Notes under the pieces: generated by a model
Seen by the model: only the letters and a program-made list of their open reading frames with translations
What the model was told of the DNA's origin: nothing
The model's database searches: none
Made by a program: the position numbers and the translations under genes
Assembly: GCA_023053545.1 (NCBI GenBank)
Contig: JAKZAN010000004.1
Span: forward strand, 2,604,001-2,668,000
Reading direction: 5' to 3'
Length of the DNA: 64,000 nt
Source: Lepidurus packardi
Lineage: Eukaryota; Arthropoda; Branchiopoda; Notostraca; Triopsidae
Part shown: positions 17,595 to 63,386 of the stretch, one piece after another
Position numbering within the stretch: position 1 is the stretch's first letter
How the letters are laid out: each line of letters opens with the position of its first letter

Positions 17595-17748
17595 GTTAGA
17601 GTACTGGACTGATTTCCAACTGGATCAGCAAGTGCTTTTATACTAGATCCAACAACAACGATTGCGCCTTGAAATCTTAACTAGACCATTGCCATGCAAT
17701 ATATTGACGATATAGGTTATGATCTCGAGTTTTCACTTTCACTCTCTT
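17595..17748 (-). promoter_or_regulatory. CPR-1 promoter
   Basis: TATA box (TATAAAA, complement of 17637-17643). The start-site block near 17597-17613 reads AATCAGTCCAGTAC, a weaker form of the shared ATCAGTTCAGTCTC. A GAAAGTGAAA box lies at 17731-17748, the counterpart of the upstream element of the other cuticle genes. Confidence 0.6.
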
Positions 17749-18749
17749 TGCACTCCTCTCATGACCCATAGGTAGAGAGAGGAACACACCCTTTGGCCGA
17801 ATGTGGGATCCACATAAGGGGCTCAAACAAGTCTACGCATTGAAAGTGGTGCAACGGAGGCTGCGCTTTGGACTTTGGACTTTTGGACGCTTTGGGATCT
17901 GAAGCGGTGTGTAGACTCCTAGTAGCTGATGCAATGAATAGAAAAGTCTCTGGATTATTTTTGATATTTTATTATGGATTTATTCTGGTTCACTTATTAT
18001 AGATTTTGTGCTATTATGTTTCATACCCGTTGAAAATGAGTCAGTTGAAAATGAAAGCCAGTTGAAGATGAAAAGCGAGGTAAAACAAAATATGATTGCA
18101 TGGAAGCTGCGGGATTAGGATTGGGATCGCACATCATTTGTTGATACCAGTAAGTTTATGTAGCGAAATCGTTGGCACATAGGAGTAAATAAAAGGTTAA
18201 ATGGAAGTCCCAAGGTAAGTTTTGGCAACAGATGTTCAACAGAAAAGCGTTAACTGTGGATTACATTAGAGAGTATCTCCTGAAGCATTCTCGCTGATTT
18301 GGTTCCGCTCTTTGTGTTCAAAACTCCAAAAGAATCATGTTCGGAAAGACTTAAGGGTTATTTAAAAGATATATAAACCAGAGCGGTTTACGAGCAAGAG
18401 GCGTTTAAATTATAGTCCCACAGCTAATGTCATTCATGTAGACGAGCGTGAAGGATGACTAGTTCCGCATATTCAAAAGCATTGTGATGATCACAAAGAT
18501 AGAGCATGTTTATGGCGGGAAGTACTTGAAGAGCTTCTTGAGGCCATACATACCAGTACTGTATATACTGCGACCTTAACCGTCGAACATGCGTGTGAAA
18601 AGCTCATGGCCGTGGAAGTACTCGAGGAAGACCTTCACCTAAATACATCGCCGGAACTCTTCGCTTTGTTATATCTAAGGGATGCACCTTATATTGAACT
18701 CCCTTATAGTGTCAGGACTGGTTATACTTTGCGTCTTAATGATAGCAGT
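17749..18749. other. intergenic between divergent CPR-1 and CPR-2
   Basis: About 1 kb with no gene. A GACCTTCACCT motif at 18629-18639 recurs upstream of other cuticle genes. An open frame at 18606-18869 overlaps the CPR-2 promoter and is not credible as a gene. Confidence 0.6.
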
Positions 18750-18891
18750 GAAAGTAAAAGTGAAGCTGTGAGAGATGGCATCGCCTTTCCTTTGGGCAAG
18801 TTCGGTAAACTAAGGCAATGCAAACGGTGTGCCGTATATTGCTTGAGGTATAAAAGCGCTGGTCTATGATCCGTTAAATCAGTTCAGTCTC
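18750..18891 (+). promoter_or_regulatory. CPR-2 promoter module
   Basis: From upstream to downstream: box A GAAAGTAAAAGTGAAGC (18750-18766), box B ATCGCCTTTCC (18780-18790), TATAAAA (18849-18855) and the start block ATCAGTTCAGTCTC (18878-18891). TATA to TCAGT spacing is about 30 bp. The same order occurs at CPR-3, CPR-4 and CPR-6. Confidence 0.75.
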
Positions 18892-18917
18892 ATTCTCTGA
18901 AACCCACACATCCCAAG

Positions 18918-19455
18918 ATGAAATTCTTCCTCATCGCCGCTTTCTTGGCCGCTGCCTCCGCAGCTAGCTTGCCTTACCAACCCCAGGCTTACTCTACCGG
19001 CTATGCCAAGCAGCCTGAGATCACCATCGTGAGCCAAAGCGATGTCCGCAACCCAGACGGCAGCAGCCAATGGAGGTAAAACAACTCTTCTATAATAATG
19101 TTTCAAGATGATTTGAACTTAAATGTCTGTATCTTGTAGTTACGCCGGATCTGATGGTACGACCCGCGAAGAATCTCAAGTCCAGAAGCAGATCGGTTAC
19201 GAATCTGGCAACACCAACCGCGGATCTTCTTATTGGATCGCCCCCGATGGCCAACGTTTCACTTTGACCTGGGTCGCTGATGAGAACGGATTCCAGCCCA
19301 AGGGTGACCACTTGCCCGTTGCTCCCCAAAACACCCCTGAAGTTGCCGCCGTATGGGCCACCGTCCGTACCCCAACTTACTCTGCCCCCGCTGCCTACCC
19401 CGCACCCGCTGCTTACCCCAGACCCGCTGCCTACCCTGCCCCTGCTCGTTATTAA
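18918..19455 (+). CDS. RR-1 cuticle protein CPR-2
   Basis: Exons 18918-19075 and 19140-19455 give 157 residues: signal peptide MKFFLIAAFLAAASA, short linker, RR-1 domain (YAGSDGTTRE to WVADENGFQPKGDHLP) and an AAYPAPAAYPRP tail ending ARY. The intron sits in phase 2 after the Trp codon, as in every member here. Its exon 2 protein matches CPR-1 exactly, suggesting recent duplication or gene conversion. The start is the first ATG after the initiator, 27 bp downstream. AATAAA lies at 19496-19501. The role is exoskeletal matrix, inferred from the family. Confidence 0.93.
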
Positions 19456-19501
19456 ATTATAACAAATGTTCCTTGTATATAAGGGATTTATTTATAATAA
19501 A

Positions 19502-20393: not shown

Positions 20394-20522
20394 GAAAGTA
20401 GAAGTGAAGCAAGACACATGATCGCCTTTCCTCAACGCACGCCGTAAGACCAGCGCTGTTTGCTCTACTTACGAAGCGGTATATAAGCCATCCGCTTACT
20501 ACCGTTACATCAGTTCAGTCTC
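20394..20522 (+). promoter_or_regulatory. CPR-3 promoter module
   Basis: Box A GAAAGTAGAAGTGAAGC (20394-20410), box B GATCGCCTTTCCTCAA (20420-20435), TATATAAG (20480-20487) and start block ATCAGTTCAGTCTC (20509-20522). Order and spacing match CPR-2. Confidence 0.75.
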
Positions 20523-20550
20523 ATTCTCTGATACTTACAAACAACCAACA

Positions 20551-21102
20551 ATGAAATTCTTCATCATCGCCGCTTTCTTGGCCGCTGCCTCCGCAGCTAG
20601 CTTGCCTTACCAACCCCAGGCTTACTCTGCCGGCTATGCCAAGCACCCCGAGATCACCATCGTGAGCCAAAGCGATGTCCGCAACCCAGACGGAAGCAGC
20701 CAATGGAGGTAAGCCTTTATATCTATTCCTTGTTATTGTTCCTCATTTAATCAAAATTTCGTTTACAGCTACGCCGGATCTGATGGTACGACCCGTGATG
20801 AAGCCCAAGTCCAAAAGCAGATCGGTTACGAATCTGGCAACACCAACCGCGGTAACTCTTACTGGGTTGCCCCTAATGGCGAACGTTTGACTTTGAGCTG
20901 GGTTGCTGATGAGAACGGATTCCAGCCCAAGGGTGACCACTTGCCCGTTGCCCCCCAACTCACCCCTGAAGTCGCTGCCGTATGGGCCACCGTCCGTACC
21001 CCAACCTACTCTGCCCCCGCTGCGTACCCCGCACCCGCTGCATACCCCGCACCCGCTGCATACCCCAAACCCGCTGCATACCCTGCACCCGCCCGTTATT
21101 AA
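20551..21102 (+). CDS. RR-1 cuticle protein CPR-3
   Basis: Exons 20551-20708 and 20769-21102 give 163 residues. Signal peptide MKFFIIAAFLAAASA, RR-1 domain with YAGSDGTTRDEAQVQ and WVADENGFQPKGDHLP, then four AAYP.P repeats ending PARY. The extra repeat makes it 6 residues longer than CPR-1 and CPR-2. The 60-bp intron is identical to those of CPR-4 and CPR-5. The gene and its 3' flank form one arm of a large inverted repeat with CPR-5. AATAAA at 21127-21132. Confidence 0.93.
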
Positions 21103-21607
21103 ATTATTTAGCCAAATGTATTTATGAATAAATATCTTAAGCGAAACCTTTGAATCAACAATTTTTCTTATGTATGGTTCAAATTGAGTTGAAAGTTATT
21201 TCGTCGACTTCTTTCGTCATCGTATCAAAAAGGCAGTTTTGTTTTTTAGGATTTGAACGTAGCTCTTAAATGAATAGGTAATCGAATATTTGTAAGAAAT
21301 TGATCTAATTGCACGATATCTTTTCTCACAGTACAGGTTTCCAAATCTTGCTTATCTGAAGCTTCATAGAGCACTTTTTTCGAAGCTAAAAGGCTTGCTA
21401 AGATTATACTGTGCAATGTTAAAAACGACATGGAAAATTTACTTTATTTACTTAATTTACTTAATTTAACAGTGAATTGTTTTAAAACAATGTGTAATTA
21501 ATCAAAGCTACTTAAAAATGTGTGGAACAGTACACATTTGCTGTCAACAACTTATATAACTATATGTACTTGAGGAATAGTTTGGAAACTTAAAACCTTG
21601 TATTATA

Positions 21608-22128: not shown

Positions 22129-22680
22129 CTAATAACGGGCGGGGGCAGGGTAGGTAGCGGGAGCGGGGTACGCAGCGGGTCTGGGGTACGCAGCGGGTGC
22201 GGGGTACGCAGCGGGGGCAGAGTAGGTTGGGGTACGGACGGTGGCCCATACGGCAGCGACTTCAGGGGTGAGTTGGGGGGCAACGGGCAAGTGGTCACCC
22301 TTGGGCTGGAATCCGTTCTCATCGGCAACCCAGCTCAAAGTCAAACGCTCGCCATTAGGGGCAACCCAGTAAGAGTTACCGCGGTTGGTGTTGCCAGATT
22401 CGTAACCGATCTGCTTTTGGACTTGGGCTTCATCACGGGTCGTACCATCAGATCCGGCGTAGCTGTAAACGAAATTTTGATTAAATGAGGAACAATAACA
22501 AGGAATAGATATAAAGGCTTACCTCCATTGGCTGCTTCCGTCTGGGTTGCGGACATCGCTTTGGCTCACGATGGTGATCTCGGGGTGCTTGGCATAGCCG
22601 GCAGAGTAAGCCTGGGGTTGGTAAGGCAAGCTAGCTGCGGAGGCAGCGGCCAAGAAAGCGGCGATGATGAAGAATTTCAT
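22129..22680 (-). CDS. RR-1 cuticle protein CPR-4
   Basis: Exons 22680-22523 and 22462-22129 give 163 residues. The protein is almost the same as CPR-3, with a rearranged tail (AAYPRPAAYPAPATYPAPARY). Signal peptide, RR-1 core YAGSDGTTRDEAQVQ and WVADENGFQPKGDHLP are all present. The intron is identical base for base to CPR-3 and CPR-5. It faces CPR-3 tail to tail. The tail change shows that the Pro/Ala repeat is the fast-evolving part. Confidence 0.93.
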
Positions 22681-22704: not shown

Positions 22705-22839
22705 GAGACTGAACTGATTTTACGGAACCAAGACCAGTGCTTTTATACCTATATCGAACTGGAGCACGCAGAACGGTCTGCGTTTAGGGTTCCCCCTTGG
22801 GGAAGGGCGATCTTTATGTTAGGCTTCACTTTTACTTTT
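22705..22839 (-). promoter_or_regulatory. CPR-4 promoter module
   Basis: On the minus strand: box A AAAAGTAAAAGTGAAGC (22839-22823), box B GATCGCCCTTCCCCAAGG (22812-22795), TATAAAA (22747-22741) and start block ATCAGTTCAGTCTC (22718-22705). Same order and similar spacing as CPR-2 and CPR-3. Further upstream a GGTGAAGGTCACCC motif lies near 22942-22955. Confidence 0.72.
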
Positions 22840-22955
22840 GCCTATCCCAACCCACGATATAAGAAAAGCATGAGAGCATCTGTTCTTTTCCGTATAGAAG
22901 GGAGCAGGTAAGGGATCCGTTTGTCCCAACGCCCCAAATTTGGGTGAAGGTCACC

Positions 22956-25735: not shown

Positions 25736-25892
25736 ATATCTAAAAAGTGGATATAGGGAAACCTCAGTGGTATAATCCGTACCAGTGGATTAATTAAAGG
25801 CTGATCATGTCGAACCCTTTGTATTTTTGGAATTCATTAAATCTATCATTTCGAACCTCTTTAAAATCAAACCCAAATTTTTAAAATTTGGT
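25736..25892. mobile_element. MITE M1 copy b (truncated)
   Basis: Contains TATAGGGAAACCTCAGTGG and the inner sequence of copy a in inverse orientation, lying inside the duplicated right arm. The far end is missing, cut at the boundary of the roughly 390-bp segment absent from this arm. Its presence in both arms dates its insertion before the duplication. Confidence 0.7.
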
Positions 25893-26041
25893 TCCTAAAA
25901 ACCAAAACTGCCTTTTTGATACGATGACGAAAGAAGTCGACGAAATAACTTTCAACTCAATTTGAACCATACATAAGAAAAATTGTTGATTCAAAGGTTT
26001 CGCTTAAGATATTTATTCATAAATACATTTGGCTAAATAAT

Positions 26042-26593
26042 TTAATAACGGGCGGGTGCAGGGTATGCAGCGGGTTTGGGGTATGCAGCGGGTGCGGGGT
26101 ATGCAGCGGGTGCGGGGTACGCAGCGGGGGCAGAGTAGGTTGGGGTACGGACGGTGGCCCATACGGCAGCGACTTCAGGGGTGAGTTGGGGGGCAACGGG
26201 CAAGTGTTCACCCTTGGGCTGGAATCCGTTCTCATCAGCAACCCAGCTCAAAGTCAAACGTTCGCCATTAGGGGCAACCCAGTAAGAGTTACCGCGGTTG
26301 GTGTTGCCAGATTCGTAACCGATCTGCTTTTGGACTTGAGCTTCATCACGGGTCGTACCATCAGATCCGGCGTAGCTGTAAACGAAATTTTGATTAAATG
26401 AGGAACAATAACAAGGAATAGATATAAAGGCTTACCTCCATTGGCTGCTTCCGTCTGGGTTGCGGACATCGCTTTGGCTCACGATGGTGATCTCGGGGTG
26501 CTTGGCATAGCCGGCAGAGTAAGCCTGGGGTTGGTAAGGCAAGCTAGCTGCGGAGGCAGCGGCCAAGAAAGCGGCGATGATGAAGAATTTCAT
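26042..26593 (-). CDS. RR-1 cuticle protein CPR-5
   Basis: Exons 26593-26436 and 26375-26042 give 163 residues. The protein differs from CPR-3 by very few residues (for example GEHLP for GDHLP). Signal peptide, RR-1 domain and the four-unit AAYP.P tail are the same. The intron and 3' flank are near-identical to CPR-3, and the gene is the inverted-duplicate partner. The 5' flank is less similar, so it has its own promoter sequence. Confidence 0.93.
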
Positions 26594-26618: not shown

Positions 26619-26773
26619 GAGACTGAACTGATGAATTGAAACGGTGGGAAAATTGCTTTTATATGCTCTAACTTGCGTTCGAATTGGGACACGTGAGGCA
26701 TTTCTCTTAGGTGCAATTCGCCTTGAGGGAGGGCGCGATACTATCTCCAGACCAACTCTACTTTTACTTTCGC
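26619..26773 (-). promoter_or_regulatory. CPR-5 promoter module
   Basis: On the minus strand: box A GCGAAAGTAAAAGTAGAG (26773-26756), a box-B-like CGCCCTCCCTCAAGGCG region (near 26735-26719), a TATATAAAA-type box (26663-26657) and start block ATCAGTTCAGTCTC (26632-26619). The elements are recognisable but more diverged than at CPR-2, CPR-3 and CPR-4. Confidence 0.6.
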
Positions 26774-27604
26774 TCCGTTGAGAGCGTTCAGTCGCAGAAA
26801 GCCGTTACTTGATGAAGGCTTCAAAGGACGTCCAATCGTAGCCGACCCATTGAAGACTTTGTGCCGATGAAGGTCGTTTAGATTCGCGAGCGTCCTTCCG
26901 GTCAAACGGAAATAAACTAGTTCTCAATTGATTTTTTCTTAATGATATCTTGTTGAATGCTTGAAGCATTTGTGTTCTTATTTCACACTTTCTTGCAGCT
27001 GATATCCTATTCATTTTTTACGCAATTAGAAAATTAGCCTCTATGTATTTCTGTAGAATTTCTTTCATTATACGCATGACGCTATTATTACATAATACAA
27101 ATGCGTAACAAGCTTGACATAATTTTATTATATACTAATAACAATACGAATATAACCGTATACGAAAGAATGAAGACTTAAAAAAATTTCACTTTAATCC
27201 ACTGAAGAATGGTGATCCTGCTTACAATTTCGCTTTTTTTTGCTAAATCATAGCTAAATGCAACTCTCCTTATCGCTTCACCATCTTCCTTCATTTCAAG
27301 CTATTGTTTCGAAAGTGTTCCTATAATGCGAAACGCGAATACGCCGCATACATCTGCTTTCCCATTTTTTCCCCTAAAAATGTGAAACGGCAACCTTAGA
27401 TTCAAAAATCAGTATCGTTCGAATTTAGAAGTTTCGTAGTTCGCGTTTTCTATTACAGGAACACCCGTTGTGTTTTGATTTTTGCTTGTTTAGCCGTTTA
27501 TACATACCGCACGTGCATTTTCAAGATGGCAATGACTTTTTCAAGATAACAATTTCGTATGGAAAAACGATTTGTTATAAACTTGATCATAAAACCTTCT
27601 AAAA
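26774..27604. other. intergenic between CPR-5 and NPAT
   Basis: About 830 bp that must include the NPAT promoter. I see no TATA box or other supported feature. The short open frames have no recognisable domain. Confidence 0.55.
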
Positions 27605-32631: not shown

Positions 32632-32667
32632 GCTTGTTATCACTTGTAGTACATCTGTAGGAGCAAA

Positions 32668-33720
32668 ATGAGTTCTTTCGTTACGAATTTTTGGAAGCGT
32701 TATCGTCGAAGGATCTTTGTTTTAGGAACTGTAGTGGGCGGGGCATACTTGCTAAAACGGTATGCGACTCGTAAATTTTTAGAATGGCAAGAACGTGAAG
32801 CCAACGAACTCTTCAAAAGAACCACGAAATTGCAGCTGTTCGAAAGCACCGAAAAAACCGCCAACACGACTGTGTTGAACCTTTTGAGCGATCTTTACAG
32901 TCAAATATCCAAAACCCTGGATATCGATTCATTGACGCTGCTTCTGAAGAGTGGAGCTCCTAATAAGCTAGAATTGTGGGAGGATTTGAAAATATTGGCG
33001 TTTAGCCGCGCTGTAGCTTACATTTATGGTACAGCATTACTTGTGGGAATGCTGCGCATTAAGATGAACATCCTTGGAGCTTACTTGTACCTAGATAGCA
33101 GCTCTGACGCCCTCAAGTTGTCCCCTGAGTTGCAAAACTCGTATTTGTCGTCCTGCAACTACCTGTTGAACACGGGAATCGAAAAGCTTTGCAACATCGC
33201 ACGGGTCAATGCGAAAACGTGTGTTCAGAATATGAGCCTGACCAGCATTGTTGGATTGCTCGATATGGAGCGCGTTTTGACAGAAATTTGTGTAGCGGTA
33301 GAAACAGAGGTACATGGCAGTGGATCCTGGGCCCAATTCTGGGAATCAACTAAAGGTACAGACTCAAACAACGATACCATGAACCGCATGTTGGCAGACA
33401 CCAAAGAGCTGATGGAAGCGGGCGAATTCCAGGTGCTGATATCTTCTTGCGGCGTAATTGGCCGCAGCGATATACTGGACCGCTTAGCGGAAGAAATGCC
33501 TAGTAATCTGGTGACTCGTACGAACAACGATAACCTGAGCAATCCCAACAACTTTACGAATCCTAATGTTAAGATAGCGTTAGCGAAATTGATTCCGCTG
33601 TTGAATAAAGCGTCTTGTGCGAACACGAGGAGGGACAGCTTGGCAATGAAACTGGTAAGGTGCGAAAAAGTGCGTATTTTTAGCGCGAATATTTATGAAG
33701 CGTATACGTTCGAGCCTTAA
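32668..33720 (+). CDS. PEX3: peroxisomal biogenesis factor 3
   Basis: Peroxisomal membrane receptor that docks PEX19 for insertion of membrane proteins. Single exon, 350 residues, close to the usual 370. The N-terminus MSSFVTNFWKRYRRR is basic and followed by a hydrophobic segment FVLGTVVGGAYLLKRY (residues 17-32), the peroxisomal targeting anchor. The body shows the helical PEX3 fold, with TTVLNLLSDLY near residue 71 and LKIL AFSRAVAYIYG near 110. Lack of introns contrasts with its neighbours. The 5' gap to Tim8 is 36 bp, so the promoter probably overlaps the Tim8 3' end or the two share a transcript. Confidence 0.92.
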   Translation: MSSFVTNFWKRYRRRIFVLGTVVGGAYLLKRYATRKFLEWQEREANELFKRTTKLQLFESTEKTANTTVLNLLSDLYSQISKTLDIDSLTLLLKSGAPNKLELWEDLKILAFSRAVAYIYGTALLVGMLRIKMNILGAYLYLDSSSDALKLSPELQNSYLSSCNYLLNTGIEKLCNIARVNAKTCVQNMSLTSIVGLLDMERVLTEICVAVETEVHGSGSWAQFWESTKGTDSNNDTMNRMLADTKELMEAGEFQVLISSCGVIGRSDILDRLAEEMPSNLVTRTNNDNLSNPNNFTNPNVKIALAKLIPLLNKASCANTRRDSLAMKLVRCEKVRIFSANIYEAYTFEP

Positions 33721-40233: not shown

Positions 40234-40696
40234 TTAATAGTGGGCAGGGGCAGCGTAGGATGTGGGGGTACGGACGGTGGCCCAAACGGCAGCGACTTCA
40301 GGGGTATGGTGGGGGGGTACGGGCAAATGGTCACCATGGGGTTGGAATCCGTTCTCGTCAGCAACCCAGCTCAAAGTTAAACGTTCGCCACCGGGAGCGA
40401 CCCAGTAGGAGTTTCCGCGGTTGGTATTGCCTTGGTCATAACCGATTTGCTTCTGCACTTGCGATTCGTCACGGGTCGTACCATCAGATCCGGCGTAGCT
40501 AGAATATAATTTTAAGTCAAAATATGATAAAATATGACCACTAAGCTTACTTCCAGTGGCTGCTTCCGTCAGTTTTGCGAATATCGCTCTGGCTCACAAT
40601 GGAGATATCATGCTTGGCATAGCCGGATTGGCCTTGATAAGGCAAGCTTGCAGCGGAGGCAGCAGCCAAGAAAGAGACGATCAGGAAGAATTTCAT
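40234..40696 (-). CDS. RR-1 cuticle protein CPR-6 (short tail)
   Basis: Exons 40696-40551 and 40498-40234 give 136 residues. Signal peptide MKFFLIVSFLAAASA, then an RR-1 domain (YAGSDGTTRDESQVQ, WVADENGFQPHGDHLP). It lacks the AAYP.P repeats and ends TSYAAPAHY, so it is the shortest member of the left-hand set. The exon junction follows Trp as elsewhere, though the preceding residue is His (SHW) rather than Gln. It stands apart from the duplicated group, with a diverged signal-to-domain linker. Confidence 0.92.
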
Positions 40697-40724: not shown

Positions 40725-40861
40725 GAGACTGAACTGATTGATTGGTACCAAAAGTGATCGCTTATATACTATTCAGTAAGTAGAGCAAACACTGTCTTGG
40801 CTTAAGTTTACCGTTCGCCTCGAGGAAAGGCGAACCTGTATGAAGCTTCACTTTTACTTTC
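40725..40861 (-). promoter_or_regulatory. CPR-6 promoter module
   Basis: On the minus strand: box A GAAAGTAAAAGTGAAGC (40861-40845), box B TTCGCCTTTCCTCG (40834-40821), TATATAAG (near 40770-40761) and start block ATCAGTTCAGTCTC (40738-40725). Box A is identical to that of CPR-2, although the genes are 22 kb apart. Confidence 0.75.
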
Positions 40862-42525: not shown

Positions 42526-43029
42526 TTAATAACGAGCAGCAGCAGGGTAGCCAGCGGGGGCAGAATAGGTTGGAGGACGGACGGTGGCCCAGACGGCAGC
42601 GACTTCTGGGGTGAGTTGAGGGGCAACAGGCAAGTGTTCACCCTTGGGTTGAAATCCGTTTTCATCAGCAGCCCAGGCCAAGTTGATACGTTCGCCACTG
42701 GGAGCAACATAGTAAGTAGATCCACGGTTGGTATTGCCATGTTCGTAACCGATCTGCTTCTGAACTTGAGCTTCTTCACGGGTCGTACCATCAGATCCAG
42801 CGTAGCTATAATAGGACGAAATTAAGTTTAATTTTAAATGCACAGAATTATGATAGCAAAGGTTTCCTTACCTCCATTGGCTGCTCCCATCTGGGTTACG
42901 AATATCGCTCTGGCTCACAATGGTGATTTCAGGCTGTTTGGCATAGCCGGTAGAGTAAGCTTGGGATTGGTAAGGCAAGCTAGCTGCGGAGGCAGCGGCC
43001 AAGAAACCGGCGATCAGTAAGAACTTCAT
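42526..43029 (-). CDS. RR-1 cuticle protein CPR-7
   Basis: Exons 43029-42872 and 42805-42526 give 145 residues. Signal peptide MKFLLIAGFLAAASA, linker with SLPYQSQAYSTGYAKQPEI, RR-1 domain YAGSDGTTREEAQVQ to WAADENGFQPKGEHLP. The usual WVADENG has become WAADENG. The tail is a single PTYSAPAGYPAAARY. The intron is in the conserved position. It is oriented like CPR-6 and about 1.8 kb upstream of it. Confidence 0.92.
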
Positions 43030-43058: not shown

Positions 43059-43150
43059 GAGACTGGACTGATTTAGCAGATAAAAGAGCAGCTCTTTTAT
43101 ACCTCAAAGCTCATCGAGGTAGCTCAGGAGCTTGACTCTTACTTTCACTG
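43059..43150 (-). promoter_or_regulatory. CPR-7 promoter
   Basis: TATAAAA (complement of 43095-43101), start block ATCAGTCCAGTCTC (43072-43059), and a box-A-like GTGAAAGTAAGAGTC at 43148-43134. Box A sits closer to the TATA box than in the other genes and box B is not clear. Confidence 0.6.
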
Positions 43151-45019
43151 CCATCATTTTCTTGCTTAGGTAAAGCGTATCTACGACTAAAGAAAGCTAC
43201 TTATGCGGTGTCTTTTAAAGATATCAATGTAAAGACTTCCGGTGGTACATTTAGGTGAAGGTTGTTATCATTCTAGAAGATTTCCATGTTCATTCCATGG
43301 TCTTATGCATTGTGATGAGCAATTCTCAAGCAAAGTTAGACGATTAAGGTCGTAATTTACCATAAAGTGTTTAACATGGATGGTCTTAAGACTAACGCTC
43401 GGAGTTAATTTCCTTTAGAAACATGAGAAGGTATACCTTTGGTTCCGAACGACTTGGGAATCACCTTTATTGCTGGTCTCATGACATCATAAATACTTAA
43501 ACTCAGAAAAGATTGTGGAATGCCTTTTGGTCATAAACCGCTGTTTTGGGAAACTTTAAGAGAACCCTGGATTGTTGCTAGCAGTGATTCTTCTTGAGTT
43601 TGTCACAAAAAGAGCAGGCCAAATCAAACAAATGCGAAGAGTATAATGTGAAACTGCTATTATGTAACCCGTAGATTTTAGTTTTGCATCGAACATCTGT
43701 TACTTGTCAAAAATTATCCCGCAACTTTTGTAGTTGCTAACTAAAATTCCAGAAGTTGGCTTTACGAGCCCTTAAGGGTATGAGCCAGAAATACTACACT
43801 TTCATCTAAAGCTCCTAAACATTTTTCGTTACTTTCACTGGCAACTTTCAGTTCCTGAAAACTTACCTAAAACCATCCATAATTGTCGGGAGAACCTGCT
43901 AAGGCACCGTAAGAGATACCTGCTACTAAACAGATTAAAATCTACAGAGATCAAAGGATGAACCTTTCTGACACTTTGGTTTGCTAGGATTCTAAGGAAT
44001 AATACATAATTGTCCACATTGACTCATGAAGGAAGAGTGTGTGTATAAGAATTAAGCAATAATTAATGACTATTTGTCAGCGGGTTTTGGTCATTTGTGT
44101 ATATTAGCCCTTCGAAACCGATCTCTAAACTTTTACAAATATTCCTTTCGGTCTTCCTACTTATGCGGAATTGTGTAATTCGAATGGAAACTAGCACAGA
44201 TGTTTTATCGATGTCAAAGCCCATGCTGTCCTATGTTAAGCAAAATACTAAATATAAAAATTAAATTAAAAGTCTAGGAAAGATTCCTACATCTAGAACT
44301 TATTCCCACGCTTCGTTACATAATTCGCCAATTCTTTAAATGACTTGCCTAACTGAATTGTTTCTCTTCCTTTTCTAGTACTTAATTCTTCTTTATATCC
44401 CATACGCGGTAATTACCTTATTTGTCATACTTTTCTTTTCCTTTATCCAACATGTGGTTTGGTTGGCGTTATTATCGCCTGTTTTCTCCTTTCTCTCTAT
44501 TGTTATTCCATCGTATGTCCTTTTGTTATGTTTGCACATGTTCTGTCTTCCATATTTTTGCATCGCCTCAAGGAATGTCTCGTTTGTTGAAAAATGTTAT
44601 GTGACTCGTAAGGGTAGAATGTTGCAGATGCCTGCCCGTTTTCTATAGTTTTCCCGGAATTGAATGTTTGAACCTTTCACCTTGTTGCAACACCTGTTAC
44701 TCCTTCACTAACATTTCGTCAGTCCGTAGTTTCCTGACCTTTAAAAAGGTGTTCAGAGTCGCGTGGTCAAGCGAGTAACACGAAGCGTGAATGAGCAATA
44801 GTGAACAAGTTATAGTGAACAGTACCTCATTTACCTTTTTTATTCTGTGAACCAATCGATGTATCTTAAGTTTAGCAAAGAGAGTCTGTTTAGCCAGTAT
44901 CCGAAAAACCCTGTGCCTTATTTCCATACACATTTCCCAAAAGGTGTGATTTCTGGGAGACTAATAAAACCCTAATTAATATCGCAATTTCTCATATGGC
45001 AATTTTTGATGCGTCCACC
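43151..45019. other. intergenic, no gene seen
   Basis: About 1.9 kb. A GGTGAAGGTT motif near 43253 resembles the GGTGAAGGTC sites upstream of other cuticle genes. No coding gene or RNA could be supported. Confidence 0.55.
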
Positions 45020-54465: not shown

Positions 54466-54987
54466 TTCTTTTTCTAATTGCTGAAATATGTAATATTTAC
54501 AGATTCAAAGGCGGCAGTTTTGGCAATAAAAAATTATGATAACAAGAAATACAGTCGAGTCATTCAGGAAATTCAAAGGTCAATTATGGCGTTAAAAACT
54601 CAAGGGAAAGACGTAGCTATACAATGGGTGCCAGGACACGAGGGTTTTAAGGGCAATGAAAAGGCAGATTTAGCAGCAAAGCTGGGGAAAGGATCAGAAA
54701 ATTTTATTAATGGAGGACTAACAACGGAAGAAATAATGTCACTTTATAAATAAAAGAACGAAAAGAGAATTTTAAGAACGCTAAAACTTCAAACTGAACA
54801 AGAATTGGTACAAGCGGCCAGGTCTCTGAAACCGCAACCATGGCTAGAACACCCGAATAGAAGAGTAGCCGTAGCGCTCTTAAGAATAAGAAGCAAACAT
54901 GCAAAGGTGGGTTGGTGGATGAAGAGATTTAAGCTTAAAGACATAGATATCTGTGAAAACTGTAGGGAACAAACAGACACAGTGGAC
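54466..54987 (+). mobile_element. LINE ORF2 fragment, RNase H domain and 3' part
   Basis: Encodes a non-LTR-type RNase H segment: FTDSKAAVLAI (catalytic Asp), then AIQWVPGHEGFKGNEKADLA with the HEG...NE.AD motif. One in-frame TAA (54751-54753) follows MSLYK. The same frame then continues with PWLEHPNRRVAVALLRIRSK and ends in CENCREQ, the start of the terminal zinc-knuckle. The 5' end lies just upstream of the APEX1 promoter. There is no poly-A tail; instead the frame runs straight into a cuticle-gene tail at about 54988. Confidence 0.8.
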
Positions 54988-55194
54988 ACACAGGTTGCTG
55001 TATTATCCAAGTTAACCACTTGCTCGTTGCCCCCAAATACACCCCGGAAGTTTGCCGCCGTGTGGGCAAACACCGTCCGTCCCCCAAACTACTTTGCCTC
55101 GCCTTATGCTGCCCCCACCGTCTACCGTGCACCCTATGTTGCTCCCGTCGCTTACTGTGCACCCGCTGTCGTCCCTGCTCCTACCCGTTATTAA
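54988..55194 (+). pseudogene. RR-1 cuticle gene relic R3 (tail), fused to LINE
   Basis: Encodes SLPPNTPRKFAAVWANTVRP, recognisable as the APQNTPEVAAVWATVRTP of intact genes, then a Tyr/Pro/Ala tail (YAAPTVYRAPYVAPVAYCAP) ending PTRY and a stop. There is no RR-1 domain or signal peptide. It shares an uninterrupted frame of 130 codons (54805-55194) with the LINE segment just upstream. The tail has diverged in composition (Val, Cys, Arg) but stays open. Confidence 0.72.
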
Positions 55195-56269: not shown

Positions 56270-56890
56270 ACTTGATGGGAAAATGTTTGCAAGGACGTTT
56301 ACAGTTCCAAACGACCTTCACCCAAAAGGTTTGACATACAGTAAACCCTCCATTTACGCGGTCCCCGTTTACACGGTTTCACTATTATGCGACTGAAGAA
56401 TTTGTCAAAATGTAAGTAATTATATCGACGACAGATGTCACTAGTATGTAATTCTTACGTAAGGTTTTCTACTGATGCGTAGCAACAAACTGCATGTACA
56501 GAATAATGTAAGTGTTGCTGACGAGTGTTTCTACTCGTAACGCGTAACGAATTATGGAATCATTAAGGGGTATTACGAATAAAGTCAATAAGAAAGACAA
56601 GAACCCAGATAAGTTTAGCAGTCAAATTAGAAATTCTCAGAGCGTTAGAAAACTGCGAACAAATGAGCAATGTTGCTCGATTGCACGACCTCAACATTTC
56701 AACACAAGGGATTCCAAAACAAGGGTGACCACTTGCCCGTTGTCCCCAACTCACCCCAGAAGTTGCCGCCGTCTGGGCCACCGTCCGTACCCCAAGCTAA
56801 TATGCCCCAGCTTATGCTGCACCCGCTGCCTACGCTGCACCCACCACCTACCGTGTCCCCGCTGTCTACCCTGCCCCAGCCTGTTATTAA
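56270..56890 (+). pseudogene. decayed RR-1 cuticle gene relic R4
   Basis: The 3' end (56700-56890) has PKQG then DHLPV-like sequence, a frame change, EVAAVWATVRTPS, a TAA in place of a Thr/Tyr codon, and an AAPAAYAAPTTY-type tail with a stop. The upstream block 56281-56323 (CGTTTACAGTTCC and GACCTTCACCC) resembles the CPR-9 upstream region at 60080-60112. Gene body and core promoter are missing, replaced by sequence that starts with a transposon-like end at 56339. Confidence 0.65.
56339..56690 (+). mobile_element. possible pogo/Tigger-like DNA transposon, 5' part
   Basis: Preceded by TA (56337-56338) and beginning CAGTAAACCCTCCATTTACG, a typical Tigger-style end, with a second similar block (CCCCGTTTACACGGTTTC) just inside. 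A short frame from 56554 (MESLRGITNKVNKKDKN) follows but has no domain I recognise. The other end is not found; it may be lost at the junction with the cuticle relic. Family call is from the terminal sequence only. Confidence 0.45.
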
Positions 56891-58400
56891 AGATTCATAA
56901 GATTCTTGTACATATAGGGGATTTACTTATTAAATAAATGTCTGAAATGCAAAACTCTTTGTGGCGTATCTTCCTCCTTCGAAATGCAGATTCTGTCTTT
57001 ATTAAAATTTATTTACTAAAACTAAATGGATATGAACTTTCTTTAACCTTTTGAGAACTTTCGACTGTCTTGAAAAAAGAACGGAAAATACGGAATCATG
57101 TTGGAAAACTCCCTAGCGATAAAACCTAGACTTTAGCTGGTCGATAGTTACTTAAACTCTTCATTTTTTCTTAATTAATCTTCATTCACTCTTAAAACGT
57201 TAGAATACATTATTTTTCATTACTTCGCTTTAACACTCTTATCTACATTTATTTTACGCTATGTCACTGACATACATGTCAATGCCATATCACAATTTCC
57301 AGGATATATGCTACCTCCACTAAACAGTCAGTTCAAGAACTGGTTCACGCAATTCTCTTCTTCTGAGGAAAGACCTTCTACAAAGTGTTCCTCCACTTTT
57401 TGTTCTATAACGAAAAAATTCAACACAACAAATTATGACATGTATTTTTTTCGTAAAGTAGTAATACAAGTGCTGACTGCGTCCATGGTCACAAAATCCA
57501 TGGTCTCAATTTCCTTTCTTTCTTCTTTTTTTTTGTTTTACAAAATATAAGGAAAAGAAGCTTCGAACTTATTGCAAGACTTTATATACATCAGATCAAG
57601 AATTATACTTTTTTCAAATCGTCTTAGCATTTTTCGAATAGAAAACTTGAAATTCACTGCACCGTCATAAGAAACATTAAATAAGAAAATTTCTAGTTAA
57701 TCAATTAACTATTAAGAGGTAAACGAAATAGGAGTTATGTTTAATAAAAAGATAAATGAAAATGAAAAGTGAAAACCGAGTTGCCACAACATTTTACTGA
57801 GATAAATTCCACAAAAAGGAACAAACCAAAACGAGTGATTTTTTCTCTAAGCATCACAACGATTACCCACGTTTATAGTAAGGGAACAGTGGAACACTTT
57901 GATCTCTAATGACTCTTAATCCGAGAACCGTCCAGTAAGACAACATGCTGAGCAAGTGCAAATAAAAGAAACGATGAAAATCACTAAACAAACCAAGTTT
58001 CGAGTTAACTATTGGTGATCTTAAACAGCAGGGTCTCGTTCAAACAATTTTCAAGCCATTAAAACGGGCAAAAAAGTGAACATGTAAAGTCCTTAACAAA
58101 AAAAAAAATAACAAAACCTGACTGCTTTGGAAACGTTAAAAAGGACGTCTACCTTTCCAAGGCGACCTTAACCTATTTACGAATGGAAGAAACTTTACAT
58201 ATATACGTAGTTTTGTCTGCAAGGGAAGTAAAGAAAGCTTTTCCCAAATGCTCCTTTTCCTGAGGACTGTTACCTCAAGGCGCTAAGATGTTAGAATGGA
58301 CGTTAGAACGGAAGCGTATGATGCAAAACCGCCTTATCCCAAGGCAGACTAGAAAAACTCTATAAGCAAATGGTTCAACCTTCTCCAGTCTCCATTCAGC
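56891..58400. other. intergenic, no gene seen
   Basis: About 1.5 kb. AATAAA-like signals for relic R4 lie near 56932. The rest is AT-rich with short open frames and no recognisable domain. The proximal part holds CCTTTCCAAGGCGACC near 58154, resembling box B of other cuticle promoters. Confidence 0.5.
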
Positions 58401-58443
58401 TATAAAAGGTTCCTTTCGTTTCCAGTTTAATCAGTTCAGTTTC
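58401..58443 (+). promoter_or_regulatory. CPR-8 core promoter
   Basis: TATAAAAG (58401-58408) and start block ATCAGTTCAGTTTC (58430-58443). Box A is not recognisable here; a box-B-like CCGCCTTATCCCAAGGC lies at 58329-58345. Confidence 0.65.
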
Positions 58444-58467: not shown

Positions 58468-58964
58468 ATGAAATTCTTCTTGATCACCGCTTTCTTGGCC
58501 GCTGCCTCCGCAGCTAGCCTATCTTACCCTCAAGCTCCCCAAACTTACGCCAGGCAGCCTGAGATCACCATTGTGAGCCAAAGCGATGTTCGTAACCCAG
58601 ACGGAAGCAGCCAATGGAGGTAAAAAATCTTTACAATACACCTTTTGGAGTCTTTTTAACTTAATATATGTTATATTATAGCTACGCCGGATCTGACGGT
58701 ACGACCCGCGAAGAAGCTCAAGTTCAGAAGCTGATCGGCAAGGATCTCGGCAACACGAACCGCGGATCTTCTTATTTCATCACCCCCGAAGGTCAGCGCA
58801 TCACTTTGACCTGGGTTGCTGATGAAAACGGATTCCAACCCAAGGGTGACCACTTGCCCACCCCCGTCCCCGTTCCCCAAGCCATTCTTGACGTCTGGGC
58901 CACCGTTCGTCCCCCTACCTACAAGGCTGCTCCCGCTGCCTACCCTGCCCCTGCCCGTTATTAA
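58468..58964 (+). CDS. RR-1 cuticle protein CPR-8
   Basis: Exons 58468-58619 and 58682-58964 give 144 residues. Signal peptide MKFFLITAFLAAASA, then the linker SLSYPQAPQTYARQPEI, shorter than in CPR-1 to CPR-5. The RR-1 domain has YAGSDGTTREEAQVQ, LIGKDLGNTNRGSSYFITPE and WVADENGFQPKGDHLP. The segment TPVPVPQAILDVWATVRPP replaces the usual VAPQLTPEVAAVWATVR. The tail is AAPAAYPAPARY. With CPR-10 it forms a subgroup that has GK.(I/L)GNTNRGSSYFITPE. Confidence 0.93.
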
Positions 58965-60224
58965 ATGATATATAAATTTCCTGTACAAATGGGATATTAT
59001 TAATAAATTATTAATAAACACCTGAATCGTAACTCCTTATGTAAATTGAATTTTTAACTTTCTTCTACAATATTCATATAGATAACAAAGATAATAGAAA
59101 AGATAGTATAAAAGAATGTAATCTTTGACATGCTAAATATTCTAAGCTTTTTTAGTTTCAGCATCCCAACTAGTCTCACAAAAGACAAAAAGTATTTAAA
59201 ATAAAAGTGCACGAGAAAAAAATAAATTCGTAGACAACTACGACAATCCAAGTCAACTAAACAATACAATTAAAGATTTATTGACGCTTTAATTACAGCT
59301 CTTATTGATGATATTGACGCCCCCAATATGGAACAACTCAAATAGGGGTTAACATACTGCCATAATCATGTACAACTGGCACGTACTGCAAAGTCATTAT
59401 CAGCTAGAGCTATCGCGGCGGTCTCGGTTTCAAATGCCCCTTTCTCTGCTATGGATTCACTACTTATGTGATCTTTCGTAAAGCGTAGGCATAATCAACA
59501 ACGAAAATAAAAACGGAGCCAAAAAGATATGGCAAATATAACAAGAAAGAAAATCACACATAAAACTGGTACACATGCCAACTCGCATACTTTGAAAGAA
59601 TTCACCTTTCCAGTGCTTATCAGCCAGTCACCTTACACCTCCGCAAAGAATCCAGCTGGTGAAACTAGAACACGTGGTCACACCATTCTATAGCCGCACA
59701 GTCACACCCATCTCTTTACCGTACGAAAAAAAGATTTCACGCGTAGCATGGCTACTTTCATGCCAATAAAGGTTTCCCGTACTCTTCATGGCAAATTATT
59801 TCTTTTTAATTTTACTATTAAGTGTCGTGGTATCTCTTATGCCAATAAAATATTTGGAAAATATTTTTACTGAACAATATAATTACAGAATATTAGAGGC
59901 AACTTCACTGCCACAGTGGCTTAATAATAAAATTATAATGCAAATAAAAGAAAATTTGCAATGGAATAAAGAACGATTGGGATGACTACATTCCCATCTT
60001 ATAAGAATCCTTCTTTCTAAAGGGGGCTGTGTAGGTTCCCGTTCCAAAGAAGTCAACCAGATCATCTACACTTTCTCGCAAAGACGTTCACATTCCCAGA
60101 CGACCTTCACCCACATGATTCGGACGAACTGTAGTCTCTTTCGCATCTCTAAAACACACAGGATGAACCTTCTCTCCCTGACTTTTATGGACAAGTTTTG
60201 GATTTCTTATCTTTCGTCACAGTC
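58965..60224. other. intergenic CPR-8 to CPR-9
   Basis: AATAAA-type signals follow CPR-8 near 59001 and 59013. A GACCTTCACCC motif lies at about 60102-60112. No other gene is supported; an open frame at 59788-59985 has no recognisable domain. Confidence 0.55.
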
Positions 60225-60354
60225 GAAAGTAGAAGTGATTCCTAAATTAGAAGACCTCCCTTTCTCCTCCCTCTATACGCGAATTTGAAGACATTCACAT
60301 CTGCAGGTAATATAAAAGGGGTCTTCCAAAGTGCAAAAATATCAGTTCAGTCTC
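60225..60354 (+). promoter_or_regulatory. CPR-9 promoter module
   Basis: Box A GAAAGTAGAAGTGA (60225-60238), TATAAAAG (60311-60318) and start block ATCAGTTCAGTCTC (60341-60354). Box B is not clear. The distance from box A to TATA is about 73 bp, close to that in CPR-3. Confidence 0.7.
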
Positions 60355-60378
60355 GTCCTCTGACTTTAGCATCCAACA

Positions 60379-60887
60379 ATGAAATTCTTTTTGATCGCCG
60401 CTTTCTTGGCCGCTGCCTCCGCAGCTAGCTTGCCTTATAATCAAGCCCCTGCCTCCTATGGCAAGCAGTCTGAAGTCACCATTGTGAGCCAAAGTGATGT
60501 ACGTAACCTCGACGGAAGCAGCCAATGGAGGTAAGCGTCAGAATCATCGTTTTTTAATATTTGTAAAATCACTCTTTTCGACTTAACTTACTCTTGCCTA
60601 CTTATAGCTACGCCTTATCTGATGGTACGACCCGTGAAGAAGCCCAAGTCCAGAAGCAAATTGACAAGGAAATCGGAAACACCAACCGTGGATCTTCTTA
60701 CTGGATTGCTGCCGATGGCCAACGTATCACTCTGACCTGGGTTGCTGACGAGAACGGATTCCAGCCCAAGGGTGACCATTTGCCTGTTGCCCCTCAACTC
60801 ACCCCTGAAGTCGCCGCCGTCTGGGCCACCGTCCGTACGCCGACCAATCCTGCCCCAGCTGCCTACGCTGCCCCTTCCCGTTATTAG
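60379..60887 (+). CDS. RR-1 cuticle protein CPR-9
   Basis: Exons 60379-60530 and 60608-60887 give 143 residues. Signal peptide MKFFLIAAFLAAASA, linker SLPYNQAPASYGKQSEV, RR-1 domain from YALSDGTTREEAQVQ to WVADENGFQPKGDHLP. The first motif reads YALSDG where all other members have YAGSDG, an unusual change at a conserved glycine. The tail is short (NPAPAAYAAPSRY). It ends in TAG rather than TAA. It lies 0.3 kb upstream of the nearest transposon insertion. Confidence 0.92.
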
Positions 60888-60963
60888 AGAATGACAGACT
60901 ATCCTGTATATATCGAAAGGATGAAATTATTATGAATACATCTATGCATCCACAAATCCTCTG

Positions 60964-61628
60964 AATTATTAGTTAGAACCAAATCTCAAGTTACCTTTTT
61001 AACATTTGGTGCGAAAACTGGAAAAAAACTCAATGTGTAATAAAAGATCTAGATGCCTCACCAGAAAAAAAACCAATCATTGCCTCAGGGATTCCCCGCC
61101 ATATTTTATCAACAATCATTCAAATCAGAACAACCCATTTCGCCTGCAAAGCTTACCTTAAACGCATTAAAAGGATTGACAGCGACTCTTGTATCTGCCG
61201 ATCTCAAGCTAAACAAGACGTACCACATCTCCTGATTCACTGTAGCAGACTCAATCAAGATCGTGCGAAACTTCTGCGGGGATTATCCATTTTAAAAATT
61301 CATTTCAACCCCAAAACTATCCTTTCGGATCCAAGAACATTCGGATTATTATCAACCTTTGCGCACCAAATGAAAGAACTAGCAAAACCCTAAGTTTACT
61401 CGCAGCCCTCCCTCCCTATCCTTACCCTCCTCTCCTTTTCCCATCAGTTTTAACCCTGTATGGACCAAGATGAGGTATAATACCTTCCCTTGTCCACTAA
61501 CCTGTTTTACTTGTTCGCCAATTTTAACAATATATTGTAATCACCGCAACTGAGAATAAAGAACCATCAACAGGCGGAAGCCTACGATGGATTTAGATTT
61601 AAAAAAAAAAAAAAAAAAATTATTAGTT
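60964..61628 (+). mobile_element. 5'-truncated LINE with poly-A tail and 11-bp TSD
   Basis: Flanked by direct repeats AATTATTAGTT (60964-60974 and 61618-61628). The element ends in a 19-A tail (61601-61619). The coding remnant around 61130-61390 includes YLKRIKRIDSDSCICRSQ and DVPHLLIHCSRLNQDRAKLL, the C-terminal zinc-knuckle region of a Jockey/I-type ORF2, ending in a stop after ELAKP. The C/T-rich 3' UTR (about 61410-61450) resembles that of the LINE at 24906 but the families differ. The clean duplication and intact tail suggest a recent insertion. Confidence 0.88.
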
Positions 61629-62079
61629 TATCCTAGCTCTCTGAGTAAAAAAAATCGCATAAAATTGATCTTAATTATATTAATTGATATTTAATCAATA
61701 TTAATTTATACTTACTTTATTTGTGACCGAAAATTACTAATAAATTAGTTGAACGCCTGATTTTTTTTCCTTACTTATCGTTTTTTATGCCGAAGAAATA
61801 GGTGTGAAGTAGCAAGTACAATACGAACATAAATGGAATAAAAGAACTGCTTAGATTGAAAATAATTGGCAATACTATTTTTCTACATATTAAAGAACTA
61901 GGCCTCGAGACTGAGCTTTGTGGAATTTACGGTCACTAGCAAATTTAAGCAATTTAGTCTACAAGTAATAGTAGGTGCCGCTTATTGTGATCATCATTCT
62001 TAGAATCAACCGCTTAATAAAATCAATAGTAACTTGACAAATGTGTTCGCAATAACTGTACTATTCCTATTGTACTATA
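61629..62079. other. AT-rich intergenic, no gene seen
   Basis: Sequence between the LINE and the MITE, with no supported feature. Confidence 0.6.
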
Positions 62080-62845
62080 CTGTCAGAAAAAAACGGGTTT
62101 ATGAAAACCTCAGTGGTCTAATCCACAGTATAAAGGTTTACACACTAGGATAACAGGGGTATTTCCAATGTTAAGGTTTTCCGACGACTGTCTCGGTCCC
62201 CAGAGTACTTTCTGGTAAAAAGGCCATAATATCAAAGGGTATATTCACAAACCTCCCAGCGTAGTTCAAAAAAGGTCACGATGGTTTTACAAAGCGCAAT
62301 GGCCTTATGGCAGTCCAAAACTCGCAAGAGTACCCGAGAGAAAGGTCACCAGAGAAGAATAAATGGTTCTTATATCAGTAAACTCGTACAATGAACGTCC
62401 GAAATGATGGGAAGTTCTTGAGAAGTAAATTGAGATCGGATCAGGTCAAAAGTTCTGAGAAATCAATGGAAATGAGAGCGAGTCAGGTAGATCAAAAAGT
62501 CATGTTAGAGAGACGAGAGGTCATAGGGTGAAATTTCAGAAAACACAACACCTACTGTGTAAACATTTATACTATGGTATAATCCTTAAAACGTGGGGTT
62601 AAGTAAAGGCTGCTCATTTCGAACCGTTGTAGGCCTCCTGTCTAAAACCAAACCCAAAACTTTTCCAAAGCGAAGTCCGTTTCTTATGTTGAGCTGGAGG
62701 ACACAGAAAAGAGTAAAGACGGATTCTACTTTTCTTAGTTTCGGTTCAGTTTTAGAGAGGAGCAGGTTTGAAATAAGCAGGCCTTAATTAATCCAACAGG
62801 TAAGCATTAGACCAACGAGGTTTCCCTATACCCTTTTTTCGACAG
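62080..62845. mobile_element. MITE M1 copy c (long form, 766 bp)
   Basis: Flanked by TA (62078-62079 and 62846-62847). The left end CTGTCAGAAAAAAACGGG with AAAACCTCAGTGGTCTAATC and the complement of the right end CTGTCGAAAAAAGGGTATAG with GGAAACCTCGTTGGTCTAAT are inverted repeats of about 42 bp. This is the most complete copy and defines the ends of copies a and b. There is no transposase. The interior is unrelated to the short copies except near the ends. Confidence 0.82.
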
Positions 62846-63341
62846 TACTACATGTCCAAATAATAAGAATCTGTCACTTTGTGAAAAGCTCAAAATTAAA
62901 TAGAAAGAAAACCGAGTCATGGTTACATTGATGATTGCAGCTTGAGCACGCTTCTTTGCCGGCAAAAAGAGTAAATTTGAAGAAATTTTAATGCTAAATA
63001 ATTATTCAACCGCTTCTTTACTTAATAGCTATAGAAAAGCTAAACTAGTAATAGCACTTTTTAACCTAGCGAGATAACCAAAATTGCTGTAAACATGTTA
63101 CGTTAATGATACAATACAGTACTGCCAGCAAGAGACCTTCGCACATATAAGGCATTAACATTCTAATATCTATCCTCTACGAAGGAAAGAAGAGCGTTCT
63201 TTCACAGCACTCTCTTATCAATTGTGGCGTACACTATCATTGTGAATACACTCCCGCGGTGAAAGGAAGAAAAAAACGAGAACGCGCTTTCCCAAGGCAA
63301 ACTAGAAAATAAATGTTCCGCTTGCTATAGTTTAATTCAGG
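62846..63341. other. CPR-10 upstream region
   Basis: About 500 bp between the MITE and the CPR-10 TATA box. A GCGCTTTCCCAAGGC sequence (63284-63298) resembles box B. Box A is not clear, with only GGTGAAAGGAAG near 63258. Confidence 0.5.
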
Positions 63342-63386
63342 TATAAAAGGATCCCTTTATTCTACCCATTGAATCAGTTCAGTCTC
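63342..63386 (+). promoter_or_regulatory. CPR-10 core promoter
   Basis: TATAAAAGG (63342-63350) and start block ATCAGTTCAGTCTC (63373-63386), spaced like the other cuticle genes. Confidence 0.7.

Follow-up and report, generated by a model that had tools for sequence, protein, structure and literature searches.

The joint activation of dozens of cuticle genes at each moult is, to our knowledge, understood for only a few genes, mostly in insects. One stretch of the Lepidurus packardi genome (108.6 Mb) bears on this question. It comprises the 64,000 nucleotides of contig C3 at positions 2604001-2668000, hereafter the window, in which an earlier note had pointed to ten intact RR-1 cuticle genes, most of them preceded by the same ordered blocks: a box A, a box B, a TATA box and a start block. 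Are these blocks a control element, or what duplication has left behind? Judging from the sequence comparisons below, we consider it likely that the boxes make up a proximal module, most likely for activation, in the promoters of one RR-1 cuticle gene clade. The ten genes, CPR1 to CPR10, encode short two-exon RR-1 proteins. With splice sites predicted by a simple script, all ten have introns of 52-77 nt and intact frames, as the earlier note had held, and the RR domains of all ten are present in a genome-wide list of Chitin_bind_4 domains.

Conserved words upstream of the window genes

The ten promoters were anchored at the TATA box, and their median pairwise identity in global alignments was compared with that of shuffled sequence. 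The distal part of the promoter is 0.48 identical (shuffled 0.45) and the gap between box B and TATA 0.46 (shuffled 0.41); identity is 0.69 from TATA to the start and 0.76 in the 5′ leader and exon 1. A profile of 15-mer matches rises to 8.6-9.0 over positions -105 to -85 from TATA (box A) and to 8.5-8.8 over -75 to -60 (box B), compared with 7.4-8.25 in the distal flank, 7.8-8.1 between box B and TATA, and 7.67 (standard deviation 0.15) in shuffles. The highest stretch of the distal flank, -220 to -205, is a third block, box C (GACCTTCACC), which is absent from the earlier note. A de novo search for 10-mers, independent of that note's words, ranked box A at the top (101) and box C second (75), the maximum in 100 shuffles being 56.

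We also scanned both strands of the 64 kb with held-out matrices built from 58 promoters outside the window (21, 28 and 12 distinct segments for boxes A, B and C). The six best box A matches lie before CPR6, 2, 4, 3, 9 and 7; in seventh place comes an unrelated site (45361, score 17.3, slightly over the shuffled maximum of 16.7) and in eighth that of CPR5 (16.0). For box B, the seven best matches are those of CPR6, 4, 5, 2, 10, 8 and 3 (20.1-28.9; shuffled maximum 19.9), and the next scores 9.3. For box C, six matches score above the shuffled maximum of 19.2, namely those before CPR9, 7, 4, 2 and 8 and one at 56311; below it are 19756 (16.1, with no CPR start near), CPR5 (11.2) and CPR10 (10.4). 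All held-out matches before named CPR genes have the orientation of the gene. The profile, 10-mer, flank and held-out tests agree that the boxes are more conserved than their surroundings, the point on which the earlier note had staked its proposal.

The box C match at 56311 (+) is strong (score 26.1) and has no CPR start within 300 bp. The nearby frame 56548-56937 resembles, by eye, an out-of-frame RR-1 tail, and the two are possibly the remnant of a dead copy.

The 17-base box A has only three exact matches in the genome, before CPR2 (18750, +), CPR3 (20394, +) and CPR6 (40861-40845, -). The reported identity between CPR2 and CPR6, which lie on opposite strands, is borne out at 17 of 17 positions, beside flanks matching at 13/40 positions on the left and 9/40 on the right. 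The core of box A is AAAGTARAAG, with an abrupt end after position 10 in 40 distinct copies; the sequence that follows varies by subgroup (GTGAAGC, GCGAAAC, GGTATGC or GTGATTC), and the box reads like two or three GAAAGT repeats. The first base counts came from copies chosen by at most one mismatch (box A) or two (boxes B and C), which inflates constancy. Counts for boxes A and C were redone with each position left open in turn, and the nine unambiguous core positions of box A then keep their base in 39 or 40 of 40-42 copies. Box B is about CGCCYTTCCYCRAGGCRAACT, longer than the version in the earlier note. It was also considered as an inverted repeat (TTCGCC...GGCGAA), which was rejected: the arms match at 8/8 positions in CPR6, but the mean arm match of 39 distinct copies is 4.64 versus 3.99 in shuffles (standard deviation 1.1). 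Box C has the consensus GACGACCTTCACCCA (25 copies) and occurs in about half of the promoters, approximately 100 bp further upstream than box A.

Spacing is narrow. Among the 43 promoters with both boxes, box A lies at -100 to -97 from TATA in 35 and box B at -65 in 24 and at -70 in 9, with 30-37 bp between the two starts. Within the window, boxes A and B, TATA and start block are all present in order in five of the ten genes (CPR2-CPR6), and box A or box B is present in nine. The blocks and coordinates of the earlier note are thus upheld, and its "most" genes becomes half. CPR8 and CPR10, which it had credited with the core part only, both carry box B as well as the core. CPR1 is without a strict box A or box B and has GAGAGTGAAAGTGAAAA at the position of box A.

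The core promoter

All ten window genes match TATAWAAG-N20..24-ATCAGTY, the arthropod core of TATA box and initiator (Inr), with ATCAGTY 20-24 bases downstream of TATA in each. The TATA box is TATAAAAG in eight genes and TATATAAG in CPR3 and CPR6. The start block ATCAGTTCAGTCTC is exact in seven (CPR2, 3, 4, 5, 6, 9 and 10) and has one mismatch in CPR7 and CPR8, and its counterpart in CPR1 is ATCAGTCCAGTACT. With its TATA box, the start block makes up a core promoter of the ordinary arthropod TATA/TCAGT type. In Anopheles gambiae, the core-promoter section of PMC2259329 gives TATAAA for 126 of 153 CPR genes and a putative Inr for all 145 TATA genes, commonly TCAGT, ACAGT, GCAGT or TCATT, which is the same layout of TATA and TCAGT-type Inr as in our ten genes. 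Two differences are evident: upstream boxes are present here, whereas none is reported in that section, and all 34 genome matches of the exact 14-base start block lie on C3 at 0.42-2.67 Mb.

Distribution of the module in the genome

The list of RR domains is a lower bound, as 150 of 266 first-look candidates were scored in the Chitin_bind_4 genome scan. Box A core followed by TATAWAAG after 62-92 bases has 52 matches in the genome versus 8 for a reversed control, and 47 of the 52 fall on C3 0.42-3.26 Mb, the home of the RR clusters. Judged by eye, 40 of these 47 immediately precede a listed RR domain; the remaining seven (451987, 512971, 571221, 585859, 982042, 1016020 and 1032335) lie in the same clusters with no listed domain. 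Similarly, box B core with TATA has 33 matches versus 7, 30 of them in the same range of C3, and box C with box A core has 16 versus 1, all 16 in that range and one of them in the window (CPR4). TATA with ATCAGTY occurs at 108 places versus 7 in the control. Among the 100 of these that were listed, 58 are in the RR range of C3, and 40 of the 58 have box A core at that spacing, versus none of the 42 listed places elsewhere, three of which are C2 RR genes (overlap was computed for C3 and judged by eye for other contigs). This is the enrichment over other TATA genes that the earlier note had expected; nor are the boxes equally frequent before unrelated genes, as in combination with TATA they show no excess over chance elsewhere. 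Box A alone, at up to three mismatches, is not specific (1673 matches versus 1419 in the control), and it is therefore the combination with TATA that marks these genes.

We then compared 109 promoters from the 150 scored RR candidates. The 41 dropped were 31 without a TATA+Inr match (14 of these without DNA in the set) and 10 with a match more than 480 nt away, so that every promoter in the set has TATA and Inr by selection. Promoters of the window type elsewhere on C3 number 59, 57 or 58, depending on the script. By a stricter rule, box A is found in 6/10 window promoters, 47/57 of the same type elsewhere, 2/13 and 0/15 of two other C3 groups, 0/2 of other C3 promoters and 0/12 outside C3. 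The corresponding counts are 6/10, 45/57, 0/13, 0/15, 0/2 and 0/12 for box B, and 6/10, 28/57, 0/13, 0/15, 1/2 and 0/12 for box C. The module is a property of one RR-1 clade rather than of RR genes in general. The shared proximal element of the earlier note is hence real as an ordered element of an RR-1 clade; its unit is not this cluster, since the clade spans about 2.8 Mb of C3. The clade promoters form a footprint in the genome, with about 50 promoters carrying box A (53/67) and an exact list of words.

Gene bodies and promoters

In CPR3, CPR4 and CPR5, exon 1 and the intron are 1.00 identical and exon 2 is 0.99 identical, versus only 0.49-0.53 upstream. The high identity starts at the ATG; its end lies close to the stop codon wherever CPR4 is one of the pair, and about 740 bases past the start in CPR3/CPR5. 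The near-identical bodies, including a 60-nt intron, occupy 20551-21250 (CPR3), 22130-22680 (CPR4) and 25890-26593 (CPR5). CPR1 and CPR2 show the same pattern (exon 1 0.95, intron 0.92, exon 2 0.98, upstream 0.53). The simplest reading, which this pattern of identity suggests, is that the CPR3/4/5 bodies were homogenized by gene conversion with sharp borders. The boxes lie outside the near-identical tracts and so were not carried along by recent copying; bodies that are nearly identical behind unlike promoters mean that recent copying does not explain the boxes.

A further reading, which we regard as tentative and somewhat unlikely, is that selection keeps in each promoter an undescribed two- or three-part C-A-B code, read by its own factor and defining one RR-1 clade over about 2.8 Mb, while gene conversion rewrites the bodies behind the ATG boundary; the coding and control parts of these genes would then evolve under separate rules. 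CPR3, CPR4 and CPR5 are a natural set, in which almost equal gene bodies follow different promoters, so that reporters could test the code directly.

A proposed mechanism and its alternatives

In the proposed module, the core promoter would be a TATA box with a TCAGT initiator, preceded in fixed order and orientation by box B at about 65-70 bp and box A at about 100 bp upstream of TATA. Because of this order, spacing and orientation, boxes A and B are most likely sites of factors acting together near the core. Together they would bind activators, or an activator plus a timing repressor, through which the genes of the clade would be expressed in the epidermis at one common phase of the moult. 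For box A, the factor may be one of the Blimp-1/PRDI type that recognizes GAAA repeats, or an undescribed one of similar preference. Box C could serve as a nuclear-receptor half-site, as the AAGGTC on its other strand is presumably one.

Several results weigh against such a module. Five of the ten window genes are without a good box A, box B or both, yet their frames are intact. The box-holding stretch taken whole is 0.49 identical (shuffled 0.44), much like the distal flank; as this is near the shuffled level, conservation is not broad and is carried by short words. Box B is weak in the de novo search: 87 10-mers score above the shuffled maximum, and only 6 of them fall in the -70 and -60 bins. 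Among the 57 promoters outside the window, many arose by recent copying from one another, and 47/57 and 45/57 therefore do not count independent events. Two findings count against the Blimp-1 part in particular: where GTGAAAG needs G, 42 distinct box A copies have A in 39, G in 2 and T in 1, and AGYGAAAGY with TATA occurs at chance genome-wide (9 matches versus 9 in the control).

Could the boxes be functionless leftovers of duplication or gene conversion? The CPR genes are clustered paralogs, and other C3 clusters hold whole promoters that are near-identical copies. In the window, however, the flanks are close to shuffled identity, the flanks of the identical CPR2 and CPR6 boxes differ as described above, and the homogenized bodies start at the ATG with the boxes outside, which makes this origin very improbable. 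Alternatively, boxes A and B might be structural: a purine-rich and a C-rich block that, without any sequence-specific factor, fix the edge of a nucleosome or hold the promoter open. The almost pure purine content of box A, the C-richness of box B and the narrow positions relative to TATA would suit such a role. Against this, orientation is constant, all 40 distinct copies collected with the T of AAAGTARAAG left open still have T there, and the word stops abruptly after position 10. A bound word fits this invariant T and abrupt end better than composition does, and we find the structural explanation improbable. A further proposal names the factor: box A would be a Blimp-1 (PRDM1) site of the PRDI/IRF-E kind, at which Blimp-1 from the ecdysone pulse holds the promoters shut and its fall times the firing of the battery. 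Box A resembles such a site, as the Blimp1 motif overlaps the IRF-E words GAAAGT/C and GAAAGTGAAA (PMC4497732). In the Drosophila wing, regions that become accessible once Blimp-1 has fallen contain high-scoring Blimp-1 sites at Cpr50Ca, Cpr47Ec, TwdlT and Cda5, although the authors leave two readings open (excerpts of PMC6743789); Blimp-1 mutant fly embryos have pale cuticle (PMC4764556, likewise in excerpt). The GAAAGT/GAAAGC core of the Blimp-1/PRDI site is represented by GAAAGT in six of the seven window box A copies, CPR4 having AAAAGT, and RAAAGTRAAAG (at most one mismatch, -130 to -45) is present in 47% of 15 and 38% of 13 promoters of two other C3 RR-1 groups, versus 1% and 6% in shuffles. 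Four of the nine genome matches of AGYGAAAGY with TATA are at C3 RR genes, three of these being CPR1, 2 and 3. The GAAAGTGAAA word, with G after GAAAGT, is found in the CPR1 variant that occupies the place of box A and is not the rule in box A itself, where 2 of the 42 copies have that G. On the other side, no such word occurs in RR promoters of C2 (0/11), and several factors suit simple GA-rich words. Because the core base differs and the canonical word is at chance, we rate Blimp-1 as a doubtful candidate. The earlier note had matched box A to no named factor; the Blimp-1/PRDI candidate for AAAGTAAAAG now exists, its match being imperfect at one near-constant base.

Candidate factors and known systems

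The likeness to Drosophila lies in GAAAGT-type words near cuticle genes; the near-constant core base of box A differs from the fly Blimp-1 sites, which lie in accessible regions, with no ordered promoter module described in the excerpts of PMC6743789. Other candidates were rejected. The canonical Blimp-1 word is not a general partner of TATA, with 9 matches versus 9 control matches. IRF as the box A factor gave no PF00605 match, in a search without a positive control that shows little. Box B does not qualify as an FTZ-F1 site, since the CAAGG part varies (CRAGG, by eye). Box C comes closer to the full FTZ-F1 consensus YCAAGGTCR, its gene strand (CGACCTTCA) being one base off; at that base, left open, 29 distinct copies have C in 23, T in 4 and A in 2, and never the required G. 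Box B misses this consensus by more. PMC3766229, in which the consensus is quoted, looked for its enrichment at honeybee cuticle genes and found none. Late-moult open chromatin of the silkworm contains beta-FTZ-F1 and C/EBP sites, with cuticle genes among the targets (PMC12380352, in excerpt), a moult-timed cuticle setting to which the AAGGTC of box C on the other strand can be likened.

The closest precedent is silkworm chromosome 22, where 26 co-expressed RR genes have three common upstream elements (PMC2848646, in excerpt). There too, RR genes of one chromosome region have several short upstream elements, for which co-regulation was proposed, and in that account no single known factor explains all of them. 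The silkworm elements were derived from co-expression, lie within 2 kb and are 41, 34 and 21 nt long; ours were derived from sequence, lie within about 270 bp of the start and are words of 10-20 bp, the two sets being compared by description rather than letter by letter. Common upstream elements beyond the core promoter are found here in the profile, genome-pattern, de novo and held-out analyses, and since such elements are reported from the silkworm RR cluster, the kind is already known. New here are the scale, which takes in a whole clade, and the separate courses of promoter and gene body. In a literature text search, neither the 17-base box A nor the 14-base start block occurs in the ten best-ranked of 158 matching papers.

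Other features of the window and of the RR clusters

Table 1. Promoter blocks and exon 2 frames of the CPR genes, in window coordinates.
Feature	Position	Strand	Basis
CPR1 box A-like GAGAGTGAAAGTGAAAA, -104 from TATA; closest to Blimp-1/PRDI site	17730..17746	-	promoter comparison
CPR2 box A, GAAAGTAAAAGTGAAGC	18750..18766	+	exact; held-out matrix
CPR3 box A	20394..20410	+	exact; held-out matrix
CPR4 box A, 1 mismatch	22823..22839	-	held-out matrix
CPR5 box A, degenerate 3′ half	26755..26771	-	score 16.0, below shuffled maximum 16.7
CPR6 box A, identical to CPR2	40845..40861	-	exact; held-out matrix
CPR7 box A, nearer TATA (-45)	43130..43146	-	held-out matrix
CPR9 box A, GTGATTC end	60225..60241	+	held-out matrix
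CPR2 box B	18781..18802	+	held-out matrix
CPR3 box B	20422..20443	+	held-out matrix
CPR4 box B	22789..22810	-	held-out matrix
CPR5 box B	26715..26736	-	held-out matrix
CPR6 box B	40812..40833	-	held-out matrix
CPR8 box B	58329..58350	+	held-out matrix
CPR10 box B	63282..63303	+	held-out matrix
CPR2 box C, GACCTTCACC	18628..18643	+	de novo 10-mers; held-out matrix
CPR4 box C	22939..22954	-	genome pattern C+A; held-out matrix
CPR5 box C, weak	26862..26877	-	held-out matrix, score 11.2
CPR7 box C	43250..43265	-	held-out matrix
CPR8 box C	58162..58177	+	held-out matrix
CPR9 box C	60100..60115	+	held-out matrix
CPR10 box C, weak	63132..63147	+	held-out matrix, score 10.4
CPR1 TATA + Inr core	17600..17642	-	pattern match
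CPR2 TATA + start block	18849..18891	+	pattern match
CPR3 TATA (TATATAAG) + start block	20480..20522	+	pattern match
CPR4 TATA + start block	22705..22747	-	pattern match
CPR5 TATA + start block	26619..26663	-	pattern match
CPR6 TATA (TATATAAG) + start block	40725..40768	-	pattern match
CPR7 TATA + start block	43059..43101	-	pattern match
CPR8 TATA + start block	58401..58443	+	pattern match
CPR9 TATA + start block	60311..60354	+	pattern match
CPR10 TATA + start block	63342..63386	+	pattern match
Frame with CPR1 exon 2 (RR-1)	17046..17378	-	frame, RR domain list
Frame with CPR2 exon 2 (RR-1)	19123..19455	+	Chitin_bind_4, 54.8 bits
Frame with CPR3 exon 2	20713..21102	+	frame, RR domain list
Frame with CPR4 exon 2	22129..22518	-	frame, RR domain list
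Frame with CPR5 exon 2	26042..26431	-	frame, RR domain list
Frame with CPR6 exon 2	40234..40593	-	frame, RR domain list
Frame with CPR7 exon 2	42526..42867	-	frame, RR domain list
Frame with CPR8 exon 2	58665..58964	+	frame, RR domain list
Frame with CPR9 exon 2	60567..60887	+	frame, RR domain list
Frame with CPR10 exon 2	63569..63898	+	frame, RR domain list

Two pairs of RR arrays on C3 are mirrored, at about 1.952-1.956 Mb (-) and 2.027-2.036 Mb (+) and at 0.499-0.507 Mb (-) and 0.578-0.587 Mb (+). The arrays of each pair have opposite orientation and matching box variants, looking like large inverted duplications. On C1, three RR matches with equal scores (9307846, 9314012 and 9320178) are spaced by exactly 6166 bases, like a fresh tandem triplication.

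Inside the RR cluster of the window, 36176-37915 (+) encodes a long low-complexity protein with PSYGAP and KYEAP/KYEQP repeats and no Pfam match, which looks like another structural cuticle protein; among the window's 16 best matches, no box A or box B match is near its start. Non-cuticle genes lie between or beside the CPR genes, namely dihydrofolate reductase (38748-39407, +), peroxin-3 (32650-33720, +), a TCP-1/cpn60 chaperonin exon (9069-9359, -) and a kinase exon (11454-11747, +). An RNase H-like fragment lies at 54478-55194 (+), and after it the next frame holds what is, by eye, the degraded tail of an RR-1 gene, as though a cuticle gene had been cut by a retroelement.

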